Shown in pieces: positions 49,989-58,424 of a stretch of DNA of 64,000 nt. Below the pieces are notes generated by a model. The model ran no database searches. It saw only the letters and a program-made list of their open reading frames with translations, and was not told where the DNA came from. The DNA is from Candidatus Zixiibacteriota bacterium (GTDB taxonomy: Bacteria; Zixibacteria; MSB-5A5; GN15; FEB-12), in contig JANQPI010000035.1 in assembly GCA_028289585.1 (NCBI GenBank), positions 342,717 to 406,716 on the forward strand, written 5' to 3'. The position numbers and the translations under genes were made by a program. Position 1 is the first letter of the stretch. The number at the start of each line of letters is the position of its first letter.

Positions 49989-50069
49989 ATGAAACGTATG
50001 ACCTGCCAGACGACCCATCACCATCATCATCATGGCGGAGCTCCGTTGGAGAACCGGTCGGTCGGGTAG
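49989..50069 (+). CDS. hisL: Histidine operon leader peptide (six consecutive His codons)
   Basis: A 26-residue ORF, MKRMTCQTTHHHHHHGGAPLENRSVG, absent from most ORF calls because of size. The His run (CATCACCATCATCATCAT, 50016-50033) lies about 75 bases before a strong terminator and 130 bases before hisG. In histidine attenuation, ribosome stalling at His codons under low charged tRNA-His lets an antiterminator form. Here GAACCG (50051-50056) can pair with CGGTTC (50117-50122), which is part of the terminator stem, so the two structures exclude each other. The ribosome site is weak (GCGAGCT). An alternative ATG is at 49998. Confidence 0.75.
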   Translation: MKRMTCQTTHHHHHHGGAPLENRSVG

Positions 50070-50106
50070 TGTCTGTGTGTAAATAACGCGGACAGCAGAG
50101 AGTCAG

Positions 50107-50136
50107 CCCCCCGGAACGGTTCCGGGGGGTTTTTTT
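50107..50136 (+). terminator. Attenuator terminator upstream of hisG
   Basis: CCCCCCGGA-ACGGT-TCCGGGGGG (9-base stem, 5-base loop) followed by seven T, ending 28 bases before hisG. A full terminator placed before the first gene of a biosynthetic operon, with the His-rich leader upstream, marks it as an attenuator. The remaining sequence from 49792 to 49988 shows no gene; the his promoter should be there but is not obvious. Confidence 0.88.
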
Positions 50137-50164: not shown

Positions 50165-51040
50165 GTGACAGAACAATTGAAACTCGGCCTACCGAAGGGC
50201 TCCCTCCAGGAGGCCACGCTCGACCTCCTGGCGAAAGCCGGTTGGCGGGTCCGTGCCAACGAGCGCTCGTATCGACCATCGATTGATGATCCCTGTCTCG
50301 ATCCGTTTCTCATTCGAGCTCAGGAGATGTCCATCTATGTCGAGCAGGGCATTTTTGATTGCGGCATTACCGGCTACGATTGGGTGCTGGAAAACGACTC
50401 GACAGTCGAATCGGTTACCGAGCTCGTCTACTCAAAAGCCTTTTATCGACCGGTTCGCTGGGTCCTCGCCGTCCCCGACGATTCGCCGATCAAGCGACCT
50501 GAGGATCTCCAGGGCAAACGGATCTCGACTGAGGTCGTCAACCTGACGCGCCGGTGGCTCGCCGAGCGTCAGATTGATGCCCAGATCGAGTTTTCCTGGG
50601 GGGCAACCGAGGTCAAGCCGGGACTGCTCACCGACGCCATCGTGGAGGTTACGGAAACAGGTAATTCGCTGCGCGCGAACAAGCTGCGAATCGTCGACAC
50701 AATCATGGAATCGACGACACGGTTCATCGCCAACGCTGACGCTCTCATTGTCCCTTGGAAACGTGATCGCATCAACAACCTCGCCCGTATGCTGACCGCG
50801 GCGATCGATGCGACCGGACGGGTCGGACTCAAAATGAACATTCAATCAGAGAATTTGGAGGGATTACTCGCCGTGCTCCCCAGCATGAAAGCGCCAACGA
50901 TTAGTCAACTCGTCAACGGCTCGGGAGCAGCCGTCGAAGTTGTTATTGAGGAACGTCAAGTCCGTGATCTGATCCCGCAGGTCGTAGCGGTCGGAGCGAC
51001 GGATATCATTGAGTATCCGCTCAATAAGGTGATTCCGTGA
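50165..51040 (+). CDS. hisG: ATP phosphoribosyltransferase (long form)
   Basis: 291 residues from GTG 50165 with GGAG seven bases upstream. LKLGLPKGSLQEATLDLLAKAGW starts the catalytic fold; GIFDCGITGYDWV, DAIVEVTETGNSLRANKLRIV (PRPP site) and a C-terminal regulatory domain (from about residue 220) mark the HisG-long form that works without HisZ and is feedback-inhibited by histidine. It catalyses the first step, ATP plus PRPP to phosphoribosyl-ATP. Confidence 0.95.
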   Translation: MTEQLKLGLPKGSLQEATLDLLAKAGWRVRANERSYRPSIDDPCLDPFLIRAQEMSIYVEQGIFDCGITGYDWVLENDSTVESVTELVYSKAFYRPVRWVLAVPDDSPIKRPEDLQGKRISTEVVNLTRRWLAERQIDAQIEFSWGATEVKPGLLTDAIVEVTETGNSLRANKLRIVDTIMESTTRFIANADALIVPWKRDRINNLARMLTAAIDATGRVGLKMNIQSENLEGLLAVLPSMKAPTISQLVNGSGAAVEVVIEERQVRDLIPQVVAVGATDIIEYPLNKVIP

Positions 51041-52311
51041 TGCTTCCAACCATTACCTCGACAGACGAGCTGGCCGCCCGTCTGGCCCAGCGTACGGAAC
51101 AGCTTCGTATCGACACGACCTCGGTCGAAGCGATCGTCAGTGCCGTCCGCGAAGAAAAAGATGCGGCCCTACGCCGCTTCACACGAGAGTTCGACGGGGT
51201 AGACGTGCGCAGCTTGCGTGTCGACGATTCAGAGTTGATGAGAGCTCGCGATCGCCTCGACACGGCGCTGAGCGAAGCAATCCGGAGCGCTGCTGACAAC
51301 ATCCGCCGATTTCATGAACAACAACGGCCCGAAAACTTCTCGCTTGTCCAACCAGATGGCACACGATTGGAGTATCGCTGGCAAGCGTACCGTCGAACCG
51401 GAATCTATGTTCCGGCCGGTCGTTACCCGTTACCGTCGACACTACTCATGGGCGCTATCCCGGCGCAGATTGCGGGATGCGATCAGATAGCTGTAGTGAC
51501 ACCACCCTGTGCATCGGGGCGGCCTGACTCAACAATTCTGGCGACCTGTAACCTACTCGGCATCTCCGAAGTCTATGCTCTCGGCGGAGCCCAGGCGATT
51601 GCTGCGCTGGCCTTCGGTACCGAATCGGTAACGCCCGTTGACATGATTGCGGGTCCGGGCAATGCCTTTGTGACCGTTGCTAAACAGCTTGTCACGAACG
51701 AGGTCGGAATCGATCTTCTGGCCGGACCAACCGAACTTGTGGTCATTGCCGATCACACCGCCGATCCGGTGCTGGTCGCGGCCGATCTTATTTCGCAGGC
51801 TGAACACGACTACGATGCGTTGCCAATCCTCATTACAACCGATCTGTCATTGATTGAGCGTGTTGTCTCAAGTCTTACCGCTCAACTGTCGGATCTTCCC
51901 ACTGCCGAGATCGCACGACAGTCGCTTCGTGATAGTGGCTTCACCTTCGTAGCCAACTCCACTGAATCGGCAATCGCCGTTTGTAATCGAATTGCTCCGG
52001 AGCATCTCTCGCTGCACGTGTCCGATCCGGCAGCATGGCGGGACTCGGTGACGGCCGGTGCGATTTTTGACGGTCGTACGGTTCCGGTTACCTGGGGCGA
52101 TTACTGGGCCGGGATGAATCATACGTTGCCAACTGGGGGACAGGCGCGGATTACATCAGGCCTTTCGGTGCTATCGTTTCTTAGAGCGACAACGTACGTG
52201 AGTGCGACACCCGCTACCATTCAGGCGTCAGCACCGGACGTACTGCGACTTGCCACTAGTGAGGGGCTGATTGGTCACGCGCGAGCGGTAGAGCGGAGGT
52301 TGCCGCAATGA
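51040..52311 (+). CDS. hisD: Histidinol dehydrogenase
   Basis: 423 residues; the ATG overlaps the hisG stop by one base (TGATG). The conserved blocks are AYRRTGIYVPAGRYPLPSTLLM, ALGGAQAIAALAFGTESV, DMIAGPGNAFVTVAKQ, GPTELVVIADHTADP, AEHDYDALPILIT with the metal-binding His, and EHLSLHV. It oxidises histidinol to histidine in the last two steps, using NAD and zinc. Confidence 0.95.
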   Translation: MLPTITSTDELAARLAQRTEQLRIDTTSVEAIVSAVREEKDAALRRFTREFDGVDVRSLRVDDSELMRARDRLDTALSEAIRSAADNIRRFHEQQRPENFSLVQPDGTRLEYRWQAYRRTGIYVPAGRYPLPSTLLMGAIPAQIAGCDQIAVVTPPCASGRPDSTILATCNLLGISEVYALGGAQAIAALAFGTESVTPVDMIAGPGNAFVTVAKQLVTNEVGIDLLAGPTELVVIADHTADPVLVAADLISQAEHDYDALPILITTDLSLIERVVSSLTAQLSDLPTAEIARQSLRDSGFTFVANSTESAIAVCNRIAPEHLSLHVSDPAAWRDSVTAGAIFDGRTVPVTWGDYWAGMNHTLPTGGQARITSGLSVLSFLRATTYVSATPATIQASAPDVLRLATSEGLIGHARAVERRLPQ

Positions 52312-53408
52312 AGACGATTGACCGCATCGTACGGCCAGCCTACCGACGGCTCGAATCGTACACCGTCGATCTGCCAACGGTACCGATTAAGCTGAATCAG
52401 AATGAGGCCGCCGACGAACTGCCCGATGACCTCAAGCGTGCGATTGCGAGCGAATTGCTGACGGTCGATTGGCGTCGCTATCCGCAGCTGACGCCCGTCG
52501 ACGTAGTGGAGCCGATTGCCTCGACGTTTGGTCTCGATCCATCGGGCGTACTCGTGAGTAACGGATCAAACGATGTTCTCCGGGCGATCTTCGACGTCTC
52601 GGTCGGTCGCGGGAGTAGAGTTGTGACCCTGACGCCAACGTTTGGCGTCTATCGGCTCCTGGCCGAGCAGCGGGAGGCAGTTGTTGATTGTTCGCCCCTG
52701 GATCACAGATTTCGGGTACACGACCGTGATCTGATTGAGCGGTCCCGTCAGGCGACACTGACAATCGTTACGTCGCCGAATTCTCCGACTGGTACACGAG
52801 TGAAACCTGAGACGATCCGAGAGGTCTGCCGACAAACGCGTGGTCTCGTTGTTATCGATGAAGCCTACGTAGAATTTACAGATCAGGATTTTCTACCGTT
52901 CGCACGCGAGTTCGCCAATCTGATCATAACACGAACGTTCTCAAAGGCTGCCGGACTGGCGGGGCTGCGTGTCGGCTGGGCGACGATGGCTCCCGCGTTG
53001 GCTCGACAGGTTCAGAAGGCAATCCTTCCGTTTGCCTTGGATGTTGTCTCCACGATTGCTGTGAGAACCATTCTGGATAACTGGGCATTGGTAGAATCTC
53101 GAGCCGGCGATACGGTCCGAGAACGAGACCGCTTGATAGCCGCTGTCGCCAATCTCCCTGATCTCACGGTGTTCCCATCGGAAGCTAACTTCTTTGTCGT
53201 CGAGAGCGCTGACAGAAACGCATCAGCTATCATTGCTGCGCTTCTTGATCGGGGTATCCTCGTTCGACCGATGACTAGCTACGGGTCAACCGGGAATGGA
53301 ACTGAGCGGCAACTCTTTCGCGTATCGGTTGGCCGTAGAGAGGAGAACGATGCTTTCGTAGCAGCCCTCTCGGAGATCGTGGCAGATGTTCAGGAGGTGC
53401 GACCATGA
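52308..53408 (+). CDS. hisC: Histidinol-phosphate aminotransferase
   Basis: 366 residues; starts inside the hisD stop (ATGA). PLP fold-type I: LVSNGSNDVLRAIFD, TLTPTFGVYRLLAEQ, TSPNSPTGTRV, VVIDEAYVEF, and the Schiff-base Lys in TRTFSKAAGLAGLRVGW. It converts imidazole acetol-phosphate to histidinol-phosphate. Confidence 0.93.
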   Translation: MKTIDRIVRPAYRRLESYTVDLPTVPIKLNQNEAADELPDDLKRAIASELLTVDWRRYPQLTPVDVVEPIASTFGLDPSGVLVSNGSNDVLRAIFDVSVGRGSRVVTLTPTFGVYRLLAEQREAVVDCSPLDHRFRVHDRDLIERSRQATLTIVTSPNSPTGTRVKPETIREVCRQTRGLVVIDEAYVEFTDQDFLPFAREFANLIITRTFSKAAGLAGLRVGWATMAPALARQVQKAILPFALDVVSTIAVRTILDNWALVESRAGDTVRERDRLIAAVANLPDLTVFPSEANFFVVESADRNASAIIAALLDRGILVRPMTSYGSTGNGTERQLFRVSVGRREENDAFVAALSEIVADVQEVRP

Positions 53409-53977
53409 TCTCCGTGAATCGAACGACTCGCGAAACCACAGTCAGGGTGGAGATCGATATCGCAACCGCCGGACCAACGCAGATCAATACCGGAATTGGC
53501 TTTTTCGATCACATGCTGACAACACTTGCCCACTGGGCGGGATGGACATTGTCAGTGCAGGCGAGCGGAGATCTGGAAATTGACACTCACCACACGATCG
53601 AAGATGTCGGCATCTGTCTAGGTCAGGCGCTGGCGAAATCATGGCCATCCGACGGTGCCGTGGAACGCATAGCATCGGCGTATGCACCGCTCGATGAAGT
53701 GCTTGCGCGTGCTGTTGTCGACTTGTGTAATCGTCCGGTAGCAATCGTCTCGGCAGAGATCTCGCTGCCAATGATCGGCGCATATCCATCCGAAATGACC
53801 ATCCATTTCTTCCGGACTCTGGCGACTGAAGGTCGGTTTACACTCCACCTCGATCTAGTTCGTGGCGGTAACTCGCACCACGAGGTGGAAGCCATGTTCA
53901 AGGCCCTGGCTCTGGCCCTGCGCGGAGCCCTTCAGCCGCGAGGCAAATCGGCAAACTCAACGAAGGGGGCACTGTGA
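53405..53977 (+). CDS. hisB: Imidazoleglycerol-phosphate dehydratase (monofunctional HisB)
   Basis: 190 residues, without the N-terminal phosphatase domain of enterobacterial HisB. Metal-binding blocks: NTGIGFFDHMLTTLAHW, DTHHTIEDVGICLGQAL, and RGGNSHHEVEAMFKALALALR. Because it is monofunctional, a separate histidinol-phosphatase must exist elsewhere. Confidence 0.94.
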   Translation: MISVNRTTRETTVRVEIDIATAGPTQINTGIGFFDHMLTTLAHWAGWTLSVQASGDLEIDTHHTIEDVGICLGQALAKSWPSDGAVERIASAYAPLDEVLARAVVDLCNRPVAIVSAEISLPMIGAYPSEMTIHFFRTLATEGRFTLHLDLVRGGNSHHEVEAMFKALALALRGALQPRGKSANSTKGAL

Positions 53978-54561
53978 TCGGGCTTGTTGACTATGGAGTC
54001 GGCAATATTGGTTCGCTCCGCTTCGCGTTCGACCGAATCGGCTTGCCGGTTACCGTGTCGCGGGAACCAGAAGTGTTGGACATGTGCGACGGCATACTGC
54101 TTCCGGGGGTCGGGGCGTTCGCACCTGCTGCGGAGCGGCTCATCGAACTGGAACTCGTCAGATACTTACGAGACTGGGCTGCAAAGGGACGTTCGTTGCT
54201 CGGCATTTGCTTGGGTATGCAGCTCCTCTTCGAACGGTCTGAGGAAGGTCGACCGGCGCCGGGACTGGGACTCCTCAGCGGAACGGTGACGAAACTGGCA
54301 ACCACCAATCGATCATCGCACGTGGGATGGAATCGGGTTGTCGACACGCGGTCCAACATGCCATCGCACTACGCATATTTCGTTCACTCATATGCATGTC
54401 ATCCAAGCGATTTGGCAATCGTTCAGGCGACCACGACATACGGAGCAACGTTCCCGGCAATCGTCACACGACAAAACGTCAGTGGTTGTCAGTTTCATCC
54501 TGAAAAGTCAGGTGAGTTTGGGCTCGATATATTGAGGAGATGGGCTCGTGGCGAACTGTAA
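53974..54561 (+). CDS. hisH: Imidazole glycerol phosphate synthase glutaminase subunit
   Basis: 195 residues from GTG 53974, overlapping hisB by four bases. Class I glutaminase: VDYGVGNIGSLRFAF, ILLPGVGAFAPA, catalytic Cys in LGICLGMQLLFERSEEG, and the His-Glu end in SGCQFHPEKSGEFG. It releases ammonia for HisF. Confidence 0.94.
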   Translation: MIGLVDYGVGNIGSLRFAFDRIGLPVTVSREPEVLDMCDGILLPGVGAFAPAAERLIELELVRYLRDWAAKGRSLLGICLGMQLLFERSEEGRPAPGLGLLSGTVTKLATTNRSSHVGWNRVVDTRSNMPSHYAYFVHSYACHPSDLAIVQATTTYGATFPAIVTRQNVSGCQFHPEKSGEFGLDILRRWARGEL

Positions 54562-55270
54562 AGTTATACCCGCAATCGACCTGATGGACGGTCGTGTAGT
54601 CCGACTCCGTCAGGGGAACTTCAGTGATGTCACGGTTTATGGTGATGATCCAGTTTCGCTCGCTAAGGCATTTTACGACCGGGGGCTCGATCGTGTGCAT
54701 GTGGTCGATCTTGATGGCGCGCGTCAGGGCATTCCGCGACATCTGAAAGCGATCGAACGAATCACTCAGCAAAATGTTACCGTCGAATTGGGCGGCGGAA
54801 TACGAAGCCGGCAGACAATCAGAGATGTGTTCGACGCTGGAGTCGCGTATGCGGTTATTGGCTCGGTGGCACTGACCGATCCAGATGAGTTCGAGTCGTG
54901 GGTTGACACCTATCCGGATCGACTTGTCGGTGGTCTCGATGTGCGGGAAGGGCGACCCGCAATCGCCGGTTGGGAACAAGAAGTCAGAGCGAAGATTGAC
55001 GATGTGCTGGCGAACTGGAACACCCTTCCCCTCGCGGGTGTGATTGTTACTGACATTGTGACCGATGGCATGGCAACCGGTCCCAACGTGGCGTTACTTC
55101 GCGATGTTTGCCGCCGTACCACACACCCGGTTACTGCTTCGGGAGGAATCGGATCGGCTGCTGACATTCGCCGGGTCCAACAACTGGCGATCGATAATTT
55201 AGTGGGAGTGATCGTTGGCAAAGCGTTCTACGATGGCCAGATCTCTCTCGACGAGCTCGCCACATGTTGA
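54548..55270 (+). CDS. hisA: Phosphoribosylformimino-5-aminoimidazole carboxamide ribotide isomerase
   Basis: 240 residues, TIM barrel: [69 protein letters not shown] and [11 protein letters not shown]. The GTG start overlaps hisH by 14 bases, with GAGGAG upstream. Confidence 0.94.
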
Positions 55271-56052
55271 CCAAGCGAATCATCCCCTGCCTGGATATCG
55301 ACGACGGTCGTGTGGTCAAAGGTGTCAACTTCGTGAACCTCCGCGATGCCGGTGATCCGGTTGTGCTGTGCGAGCACTATTCGGCCTCCGGAGCGGATGA
55401 GCTGGTGTTGCTTGATATCACCGCGACCTCGGACTCTCGACAACATATACTGGAGACGGCCTCGGCCGTGGCCGCTGCTTGTTTTATCCCATTCACCGTT
55501 GGCGGTGGTGTTCGAACGGTCGATGACATTTCGCAATTGCTGGCCACGGGTGCGGACCGGGTTGCCATCAATTCGGCCGGCCTCGCCAATCCGGAGTTTA
55601 TCACCACAGCCGCTAGTCAGTTCGGTTGCCAATGTATTGTTGTCGCGATCGATGTCCGGCGCAGCGACGACGCGTGGCATGTCTTTTCGCATGGCGGTCG
55701 GATCGATACTGGTCGCGACGCGCTGTCCTGGGCGATTGAAGCTCGTGATCGCGGGGCGGGGGAGTTGCTGGTAACGTCGATGGATGCCGACGGCACCAAA
55801 GCGGGCTGCGACAATGAGATCACCAGACTGATCTCGGAATCGGTCGATATACCCGTCATTGCGTCCGGCGGAATCGGGACGCGGGAGCATTTCCGAGATG
55901 CTATCACTGAAGGTCAGGCCGACGCTGTTCTGGCCGCCTCTGTCTTCCATTACGGTGAGTTAACCATTGGCGAGGTGAAAGCATTTCTCGACGATATCGG
56001 GGTACCCGTACGTCCTCTTTCTGAATCTTATATAAGCGGAGCGAATCAGTGA
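55264..56052 (+). CDS. hisF: Imidazole glycerol phosphate synthase cyclase subunit
   Basis: 262 residues, TIM barrel homologous to His[30 protein letters not shown] with the catalytic Asp11-type residue, [28 protein letters not shown] with the second catalytic Asp, and [11 protein letters not shown]. Overlaps hisA by seven bases. Produces imidazole glycerol phosphate and AICAR with HisH. Confidence 0.95.
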
Positions 56053-56396
56053 CGAGTGTAAAGACGATATCCCTTGGGGACTTGACCCTTAAGACCGATG
56101 CAGACGGGCTTCTTCCGGCAGTCATTCAGGATGATCAGACAGGCGACGTTTTGATGGTCGGCTACATGAATGCTGAAACGTTGCGTATGACTATCGCCGA
56201 AGGACGGACCGTCTTCTGGTCGCGCTCCCGGCAGGAGGTCTGGCGCAAGGGTGAATCGAGCGGGAATGTCCAGCGCGTCAAATCGATCGCAATCGATTGT
56301 GACAACGATACGCTGTTGATTCGGGTCGATCAGACCGGTCCTGCCTGCCACACCGGGCAGCACAGCTGCTTCTATACCGAGATTCAGGGTGATTAG
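56049..56396 (+). CDS. hisI: Phosphoribosyl-AMP cyclohydrolase
   Basis: 115 residues from a GTG overlapping hisF by four bases. [39 protein letters not shown] is the catalytic block; [10 protein letters not shown] and [13 protein letters not shown] contain the zinc and magnesium ligands. It lacks the C-terminal HisE (pyrophosphohydrolase) domain of fused HisIE, and no separate hisE lies in the operon. Confidence 0.94.
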
Positions 56397-56478: not shown

Positions 56479-57162
56479 ATGGCACTGCTCTCCATTCGTG
56501 ATCTTCGTAAGACCTACCGCGCCCCCGACGGCTCCAGCCTGGCAGTGCTCGATATCCCGCGCTTCGAACTTGAAGGCGCAACGCAGGTCGCTCTGCGGGG
56601 TGCTTCGGGATCGGGGAAGACGACATTGCTGCATGCGATCGCCGGGATCATCGGCGTTGATGCGGGGGAGATCGTTCTCGATGACCATAACTTGCATCGT
56701 CTGACCGAGTCGGAGCGAGACCGCCTCCGTGCGCGCACGCTTGGGTATGTCTTCCAGACGTTCAATCTGCTACCCGGGTTCACGTCTCGGGAGAATGTCG
56801 AGCTCGGAATGCTCTTCGGACCGGGCGTCGATCCTGCGTTTGCTGAGCAGTTGCTCGAACGGGTTGGCCTGGCCGACCGCATGACGTATCGGCCGCCGCA
56901 ACTTTCGATTGGGCAGCAGCAACGGGTTGCGGTTGCCCGTGCCCTTGCCAACCGACCGAAGCTCGTCCTTGCCGATGAACCAACTGGTAACCTTGATGTC
57001 CGTCGCGCGCACGAAGCGCTGGCCTTAATCCGTGAGGTTTGCGCCGAACAGAATGCAGCTTTGCTGCTGGTGTCGCACGATGAGTCGATTCTCGCCGAGT
57101 TCGAGACGGTCCACGATCTCGCCGAGATCAATCGTGCGCTACAGGCTGAATCTGCATCATGA
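56479..57162 (+). CDS. ABC transporter ATP-binding protein (probable zinc-linked ABC system)
   Basis: 227 residues, MacB/LolD type. Walker A RGASGSGKTTL, Q-loop YVFQTFNLLPGFT, signature LSIGQQQRVA, Walker B LVLADEPTGNLD and H-loop VSHD are intact. It overlaps the following permease by four bases. The neighbouring Cys-free S18, His-rich lipoprotein and DUF3299-like genes suggest a role in zinc acquisition; that is inferred from context and not from this protein's sequence. The 82-base gap before it shows no clear Zur-type palindrome. Confidence 0.85.
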   Translation: MALLSIRDLRKTYRAPDGSSLAVLDIPRFELEGATQVALRGASGSGKTTLLHAIAGIIGVDAGEIVLDDHNLHRLTESERDRLRARTLGYVFQTFNLLPGFTSRENVELGMLFGPGVDPAFAEQLLERVGLADRMTYRPPQLSIGQQQRVAVARALANRPKLVLADEPTGNLDVRRAHEALALIREVCAEQNAALLLVSHDESILAEFETVHDLAEINRALQAESAS

Positions 57163-58424
57163 GTCGCAAAATTTCTCTCTTCACGATTATTCGGCGTTCG
57201 CTGCGCCAACATGCGCTGTCGACAACGATCACCGTCGGAGCGGTCGCGCTTGCGGTTGGTCTAACAATCTCCGTCTTCTCGATCCGTCAGCAGACGTACG
57301 ATGCGTTTACGGGAGGACAAACCGGCTTTGATGCCGTCCTTGGGGCGCGTGGATCCCAATTGCAACTGGTCCTCAATTCCGTCTTTCACCTCGAAACATC
57401 CCCCGGCAACATCCCGTGGTCGCTCTACCAGGCGGTTGCGAACGATCCGCGGGTCGAGCTCGCGGTACCGTACGCGACCGGCGATAACTACTTCGGCTAT
57501 CGCATCGTCGGTACTGAACTGTCGATGTTCAACGAATTCGAATATCGAGAAGGCCAAAAGTTGATGGCGCAGGAGGGGGGGCGCATCTTCGATCCGAATC
57601 GCATGGAAGCGGTCATTGGACACTTTGCCTCGCGCCAGACCGGGCTCACGGTTGGTTCGACATTTAGCCCGTACCATGGCCTGTACTTCGATGAGACACA
57701 GCAGCACGCCGAGGAGTACACCGTTGTCGGGGTGCTCGAACCGACGAACTCACCGACGGATCGAGTCATCTTCATCCCGATCGAGGGAATCTTCCGAATG
57801 GGTGGACATGTGCTTCGGGGAGCAGGAGTCGTCTATGAGCCGACGCCCGGGAAAGCTATTCCCGACGAGCACAAAGAAGTTTCGGCGGTAATGCTGAAGT
57901 TTCGATCGCCTCAGGCTGGCTTCCAGCTCGACCAAACGGTTAACAAGCAAGGCCGAGTAGCCACCCTCGCCTGGCCAATCGGTACGATCATGGCCGACCT
58001 CTTCGACAAAATCGGCTGGATGAATAACGTCCTCGCGCTGGTAGCGTACCTCGTAATCGTTGTCGCCGCCGGGACGATTATGGCATCGCTTTACAACACG
58101 ATGAACGAGCGGCGGCGTGAATTTGCGATTCTCCGCGCTTTGGGGGCGCGACGGCGGACGGTCTTCGGGGTGATTATTCTCGAATCGACGGTCATCGCGG
58201 CTCTTGGCACTGCTGTCGGGATTGCGGTCTACGGTGCCATCCTGGCCGTAGCACGAGTCATTATCCGGGCCGAGACGGGGGTCGTACTCGATCTGTTTGC
58301 GTTCGATGCCGCGCTGGTCTTCGTCCCGGCGGTTATGATCGTCCTGGGGGCGATTACCGGAATCGTCCCGGCGGTAAAGGCGTACAAGACTGCGGTTGGC
58401 GCGAACTTGACAGGTGATCAGTAG
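57159..58424 (+). CDS. ABC transporter permease, FtsX/MacB family
   Basis: 421 residues. An N-terminal helix (SLRQHALSTTITVGAVALAVGLTISVFSI), a periplasmic domain and three C-terminal helices (VLALVAYLVIVVAAGTIMASLYNTMNERRREFAILRALGARRR, IILESTVIAALGTAVGIAVYG, LVFVPAVMIVLGAITGIVPAV). The REFAILRALGA coupling block is typical of the family. Only one permease is encoded, so it may act as a homodimer. Confidence 0.88.
   Translation: MSRKISLFTIIRRSLRQHALSTTITVGAVALAVGLTISVFSIRQQTYDAFTGGQTGFDAVLGARGSQLQLVLNSVFHLETSPGNIPWSLYQAVANDPRVELAVPYATGDNYFGYRIVGTELSMFNEFEYREGQKLMAQEGGRIFDPNRMEAVIGHFASRQTGLTVGSTFSPYHGLYFDETQQHAEEYTVVGVLEPTNSPTDRVIFIPIEGIFRMGGHVLRGAGVVYEPTPGKAIPDEHKEVSAVMLKFRSPQAGFQLDQTVNKQGRVATLAWPIGTIMADLFDKIGWMNNVLALVAYLVIVVAAGTIMASLYNTMNERRREFAILRALGARRRTVFGVIILESTVIAALGTAVGIAVYGAILAVARVIIRAETGVVLDLFAFDAALVFVPAVMIVLGAITGIVPAVKAYKTAVGANLTGDQ

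Follow-up and report, generated by a model that had tools for sequence, protein, structure and literature searches.

The leader of the his operon

Is the his operon of this Candidatus Zixiibacteriota genome controlled by its own leader, through the ribosome-mediated attenuation known from enteric bacteria, and where did operon and leader come from? A first-pass annotation of the window (the whole stretch of 64,000 nucleotides that was analyzed) had proposed that a short ORF with six consecutive His codons, a mutually exclusive GAACCG/CGGTTC pairing, and a strong terminator just before hisG form the full attenuator layout. Based on sequence and comparison, we conclude that the leader very probably attenuates transcription of the his operon by a ribosome-mediated mechanism. 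The operon comprises eight genes in the order hisG-hisD-hisC-hisB-hisH-hisA-hisF-hisI (50165–56396, + strand), which were named by identity to the operon of a Neomarinimicrobiota genome, G198. The features of the locus are as follows.

49989–50069, + strand: predicted hisL leader peptide ORF, MKRMTCQTTHHHHHHGGAPLENRSVG followed by a stop; a His-rich short ORF, found at the same place in relatives
50003–50015, + strand: region 1, putative protector 5′ strand (CTGCC-A-GACGACC), from folds; predicted partner of region 2 in the untranslated leader
50016–50033, + strand: six regulatory His codons (putative stall site), from the rarity in the genome of CAY runs of five or more
50049–50069, + strand: region 2, putative antiterminator 5′ strand (GAACCG, UCGG, GGGU), from the fold of 50034–50124 and group permutation tests
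50070–50094, + strand: predicted hairpin, TGTCTGTGT...ACGCGGACA, in the spacer that separates leader ORF and terminator, from folds
50105–50136, + strand: intrinsic terminator, a 12-pair stem with loop CGG, then T7; covariation in relatives
50165–51040, + strand: hisG (long-form ATP phosphoribosyltransferase), first gene of the operon, with a GTG start and AGGAGA 5′ of it
51037–56396, + strand: hisD-hisC-hisB-hisH-hisA-hisF-hisI, contiguous or overlapping, in the order of the G198 operon minus one HAD gene

The candidate hisL runs from an ATG at 49989 to a TAG at 50067–50069, and its six His codons (CAT CAC CAT CAT CAT CAT) follow one another without interruption, as first described. The upstream ORF with several cognate codons that characterizes a ribosome-mediated attenuator is thus represented by the predicted hisL, with 26 codons, six of them His, ahead of hisG–hisI. 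The 64-kb window holds no other CAY run of at least five, and the 3.15 Mb genome has such runs in only two places, one being the hisL run, 149 bases from hisG. The other (C23:146176–146193, minus strand, L185) lies between the end of a peptidase-like gene and the next region; it showed no link to a his gene and is probably unrelated.

Apart from the His-codon cluster in a short ORF, the leader peptide diverges among relatives. The C-terminus NRSVG is common to the window and the loci L007, L008, and L149; GGTCGGTCGG and the peptide end RRSVG also recur in L007 and L008. The frame, whose loss in relatives would have spoken against the first reading, is conserved together with the peptide end (NRSVG/RRSVG) in the nearest relatives. 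No clear Shine–Dalgarno sequence is visible before the window's leader ORF, and a sigma-70 promoter search there gave no good match. Most Neomarinimicrobiota leaders likewise lack a Shine–Dalgarno core; in KSB1 leaders, one is mostly present. L007, L008, and L149, also without a Shine–Dalgarno sequence, carry TATATT ending 10 bases 5′ of the leader ATG, a spacing that suggests leaderless or near-leaderless hisL transcripts and that we take as a lead only.

A search for HisE found no PF01503 (PRA-PH) match in the host genome, which is 99.6% complete. Neomarinimicrobiota with the same operon type give weak PF01503 matches (E 1e-4 to 1e-6), mostly in frames of 257 to 360 aa, and these are possibly MazG-like. 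The unrelated his operons of genomes G103, G104, and G114 have strong HisE matches. In the operon lineage of the window, by contrast, no recognizable enzyme could be assigned to the phosphoribosyl-ATP pyrophosphatase step.

The layout at hisG loci of other bacteria

Eighty hisG loci were gathered by protein, together with further loci from the host phylum and from Neomarinimicrobiota, and the 300 bases before hisG were scored. The layout was called when an open frame held at least three His in seven codons and a strong terminator followed within 90 bases. Loci were picked regardless of their leaders, with the exception of four Neomarinimicrobiota loci (L149, L151, L158, and L161) that came from a second search; in that search, a number of loci were left unscored because they lay at contig ends or the start of the gene was uncertain.

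A His cluster and a terminator precede hisG at 17/17 Neomarinimicrobiota loci (counting L007, which is labeled “FCB group bacterium” and nests among them), at 20/20 loci of the KSB1/Calditrichota clade, at 4/6 loci of a third, mixed clade (Caldithrix/KSB1), and at 2/2 Planctomycetota loci. These four clades therefore total 43 of 45, vs. 0 of 34 for all other loci (0/16 Omnitrophota-type, 0/5 Bacillota, and 0/13 others), and only one of 840 shuffled upstream regions passed. The idea of an attenuation layout is well supported by these counts, and relatives do not lack the His run or the terminator, the outcome that the first-pass annotation had named as fatal to it.

The window itself also has the layout, as does one genome of its class, G104. 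The latter carries a second candidate His attenuator (locus L104), with MKKINTTDYRQNHLHHGHHHHDEGGAVCSG plus a terminator about 190 to 42 bases before hisG. The hisG of G104 is divergent in sequence (36–37% identity), and its his operon is organized otherwise, with hisC fused to a HAD domain and hisA fused to hisI/hisE.

Gram-positive his genes can be under T-boxes and the HisR repressor (PMC9413887), and one could suppose that the peptide ORF is incidental and that the leader senses by other means, through a His-specific T-box, a metabolite riboswitch, or a protein. Yet no Rfam family matched the leader at the gathering threshold, the T-box covariance model matched neither the window nor the leader, and the sole his-related match was a subthreshold one to RF00514. 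Moreover, what has been kept across relatives is the His-codon cluster in an otherwise divergent short ORF. We consider a different sensor very unlikely, and attenuation by a translating ribosome remains our reading.

The terminator and the alternative helices

Between the leader ORF and the first structural gene lies an intrinsic terminator (50105–50136), as an attenuator demands. Its stem (50105–50131) has 12 pairs, a loop of 3, and a ΔG of −22.8, with T7 at 50130–50136. When the window was aligned with eleven relatives, both sides had changed at 9 of the 12 pairs, and 91% of alignment cells were paired, vs. 48 to 72% in slid versions. The strong terminator that was first reported just before hisG is thus confirmed, and it is here that the compensatory pairing sought in relatives was found. 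The fold of the whole leader is more stable than 199 of 200 dinucleotide shuffles (z = −2.55).

Attenuators with translational variants exist (PMC9413887), and a stalled ribosome might control hisG translation or RNA stability, either by refolding the RNA around the hisG ribosome-binding site or by changing how the leader decays. The anatomy argues for transcription termination instead: the hairpin is followed immediately by T7, covaries, and ends 29 to 34 nt 5′ of the hisG start, leaving the AGGAGA outside. Control at the level of translation or stability therefore appears highly improbable to us.

The antiterminator demands more care than the terminator. GAACCG at 50051–50056 does have its complement, CGGTTC, at 50117–50122, and their pairing excludes the terminator; to this extent, the first-pass claim stands. 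A 6-base complement of this kind, however, arises in 24% of shuffles, and as a column-wise conserved, covarying helix GAACCG:CGGTTC had to be rejected, since 39% of cells pair and slid versions reach 39 to 59%. In the window alone, region 2 pairs with the terminator no better than shuffled region 2 does (p = 0.34–0.42) because both strands are G+C-rich, and region 1 × region 2 gives p = 0.086 against shuffles. What persists in relatives is complementarity of region with region, rather than the exact columns, as read from the aligned sequences, and the GAACCG/CGGTTC helix is just a part of the likely antiterminator.

At group level, the alternative pairing emerges. Across 39 loci, the duplex energy between each leader and its own terminator arm beat that with permuted arms (0/5000). 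By clade, permuted pairs did as well as region 2 with the terminator arm in 0/10,000 cases for Neomarinimicrobiota plus the window and in 3/10,000 for KSB1/Calditrichota; for the protector (His region × region 2), the corresponding values were 10/10,000 and 0/10,000. KSB1/Calditrichota leader ORFs end in a complement of the terminator 5′ arm, for example, ACCGGTGGGT vs. GCCCACCGGT in L020. The mutually exclusive helices 1:2, 2:3, and 3:4 are thus supported as a class by comparison of sequences, and the GAACCG/CGGTTC pairing of the window is compatible with them. Given that the window's own pairings do no better than shuffles and that the columns are unpaired in relatives, its antiterminator rests on homology of layout.

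Simulated folds of the window alternated with the position of the ribosome. With a ribosome on the second His codon and RNA to 50124, the antiterminator GAACCG:CGGUUC formed, flanked by UCGG:CCGG and GGGU:GCCC; with the ribosome at the stop codon, the terminator alone remained; and with no ribosome, region 1 took up region 2 and the terminator formed. In the clade-wise comparison, the difference between stalled and stop-codon states is partly trivial because a ribosome at the stop codon leaves less RNA free. The spacer hairpin (50070–50094) would, in the folded model, cap the antiterminator; the alignment holds no counterpart of it in the A+T-rich spacers of relatives.

That the window's own antiterminator pairing is no better than in shuffles could be taken to favor a constitutive terminator, or an insulator against upstream transcription, behind a His-rich ORF due to chance. 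The gene upstream of the leader is, however, a divergent tryptophanase, so that no terminator is needed here; CAY runs of five are almost absent elsewhere in the genome; and, in the relevant clades, His run and terminator stand together at 43/45 hisG loci, vs. 1 of 840 shuffles. Chance association with a constitutive element is, in our judgment, barely credible, and we return to ribosome-mediated attenuation.

Proposed mechanism

When charged His-tRNA is plentiful, the ribosome would pass the six His codons and reach the stop at 50067. Region 2 extends over the final codons of the leader and its stop, so that a ribosome halted there would mask it; the terminator (50105–50136) could then form, and RNA polymerase would stop before hisG. 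A scarcity of His-tRNA would stall the ribosome on the His codons and leave region 2 (50049–50069) free to pair with the emerging terminator 5′ arm and loop (GAACCG:CGGUUC, UCGG:CCGG, and GGGU:GCCC), and transcription would continue into hisG–I. If the leader were untranslated, region 1 would pair with region 2 and the terminator would form. Sequence and comparison show the ORF with its His codons, a terminator that covaries, the operon itself, complementarity of the three alternative helices at group level, and a conserved layout; that the ORF is translated and ribosomes stall on it, with what kinetics, and how the operon in fact responds to histidine are what we infer.

Origin of the operon and its leader

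HisG is rare in the host phylum. A Pfam profile found it in 7 of 133 genomes (5 of 79 good assemblies), leaving 126 of the 133 without it, which suggests widespread histidine auxotrophy, as far as gene content can tell. The window's HisG is 63 to 67% identical to HisG of Neomarinimicrobiota, vs. at most 39% to others of its own phylum, and a maximum-likelihood tree places it inside Neomarinimicrobiota with support of 99/92 (12-row set) or 100/100 (17-row set). Its end branch in this tree is long, which blurs the exact donor. For each of the eight His proteins, the closest counterpart is in the G198 operon, whose gene order is the same but for an additional HAD gene. The host RpoB, by comparison, shows 70% identity within its class vs. 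53 to 55% (full-length matches) to Neomarinimicrobiota. Based on these comparisons, operon and attenuator were probably acquired together by horizontal transfer from a Neomarinimicrobiota-like donor. With HisG absent from most of the host phylum, acquisition by this genome is a more probable history than repeated loss. The convergent origin that the first-pass annotation offered as an alternative does not hold in the sense of a fresh one in this genome: within this lineage, the HisG tree and the match to the G198 operon speak for inheritance plus horizontal transfer of operon and leader together.

Composition was uninformative as evidence of transfer (operon G+C 0.568, surroundings 0.559), and a search for an empty site by flanking genes yielded no clean site, the matches of the downstream permease in the family being weak. 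Mis-binning is an unlikely source of the foreign operon because the contig in which the operon is embedded spans 545 kb and the neighboring gene is a family-typical tryptophanase, homologs of which are widespread in the host family (up to 67% identity). Downstream of the operon, at 56479–58424, an ABC transporter ATPase and an FtsX-like permease are encoded. The permease has weak, partial matches in family relatives (up to 38% identity); this stretch, judging from those matches, may therefore be foreign too.

We give about equal weight to belief and doubt for a broader scenario, in which the His attenuator is old and clade-wide in the his operons of Neomarinimicrobiota, KSB1, and Calditrichota, distinct from that of Proteobacteria, and crossed phyla as a self-contained cassette of operon plus sensor into a phylum mostly without HisG, the Neomarinimicrobiota-type leader peptide possibly being made from a near-leaderless transcript. 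A predicted attenuator that is nearly universal at the hisG loci of several uncultured phyla, and that probably traveled with a transferred operon, indicates that a regulator needing just ribosome, polymerase, and RNA can function at once in a new host. The hisL-to-hisG read ratio could serve as a readout of histidine status in metatranscriptomes of uncultured lineages.

Comparison with known attenuators

Amino-acid attenuation has been described chiefly in Proteobacteria, Actinobacteria, and a few Firmicutes. The his leader of E. coli has seven His codons and more than three helices. Like hisL of E. coli and Salmonella (RF00514), the window combines a short ORF with a His run, mutually exclusive helices, and a terminator before hisG of a his operon. 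It differs in having six His codons and, since the antiterminator strand takes in the final codons of the leader, three main helices, fewer than the E. coli leader; and its operon, hisGDCBHAFI, has no hisE fused to hisI, unlike those of E. coli and Salmonella.

In a 301-base search, the Rfam model of the enteric leader (RF00514, His_leader) matched the window over its full length but below threshold (28.1 bits vs. a cut-off of 49, E 0.0083). Neither the window nor any of 20 relatives (0/20) reached the 49 bits of family membership. A score of 28 bits alone is not evidence because the end of a dockerin-like gene plus a terminator, without His codons, scores 29.2 bits elsewhere in the host genome (C23:53563), a false positive.

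A close likeness is also seen to the leaders of Neomarinimicrobiota (L007–L019, L149, and L151) and of KSB1/Calditrichota metagenome-assembled genomes, which have the same layout at the same gene and place. The window differs in its six uninterrupted His codons, compared with 3 to 5 in most relatives and up to 8, in its G+C-rich spacer hairpin, and in its host from another phylum.

His attenuators have been predicted in Firmicutes, namely in the Bacillus cereus group, Peptostreptococcaceae, and Erysipelotrichales, where they are missed by RF00514 (PMC9413887), and His leader peptides of hisZ/hisS paralogs are described in bacilli (PMC2965389). In Actinobacteria, trp, ilv, and leuS attenuators have been predicted (PMC1262725). 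The Firmicutes attenuators, like the window's, combine non-proteobacterial his genes with a His-rich leader peptide plus terminator and escape RF00514; compared by description, they occur in scattered lineages, whereas here nearly all hisG loci of whole clades are involved. In the open-access literature, we found no description of a His attenuator for Neomarinimicrobiota, KSB1, Calditrichota, or Planctomycetota. The range extension that was first proposed hence holds for these clades, but the Firmicutes predictions (PMC9413887, PMC2965389) had already carried the range past the enterics. The mechanism is a known one, of the enteric his leader type, with a wider range, and not a new kind.
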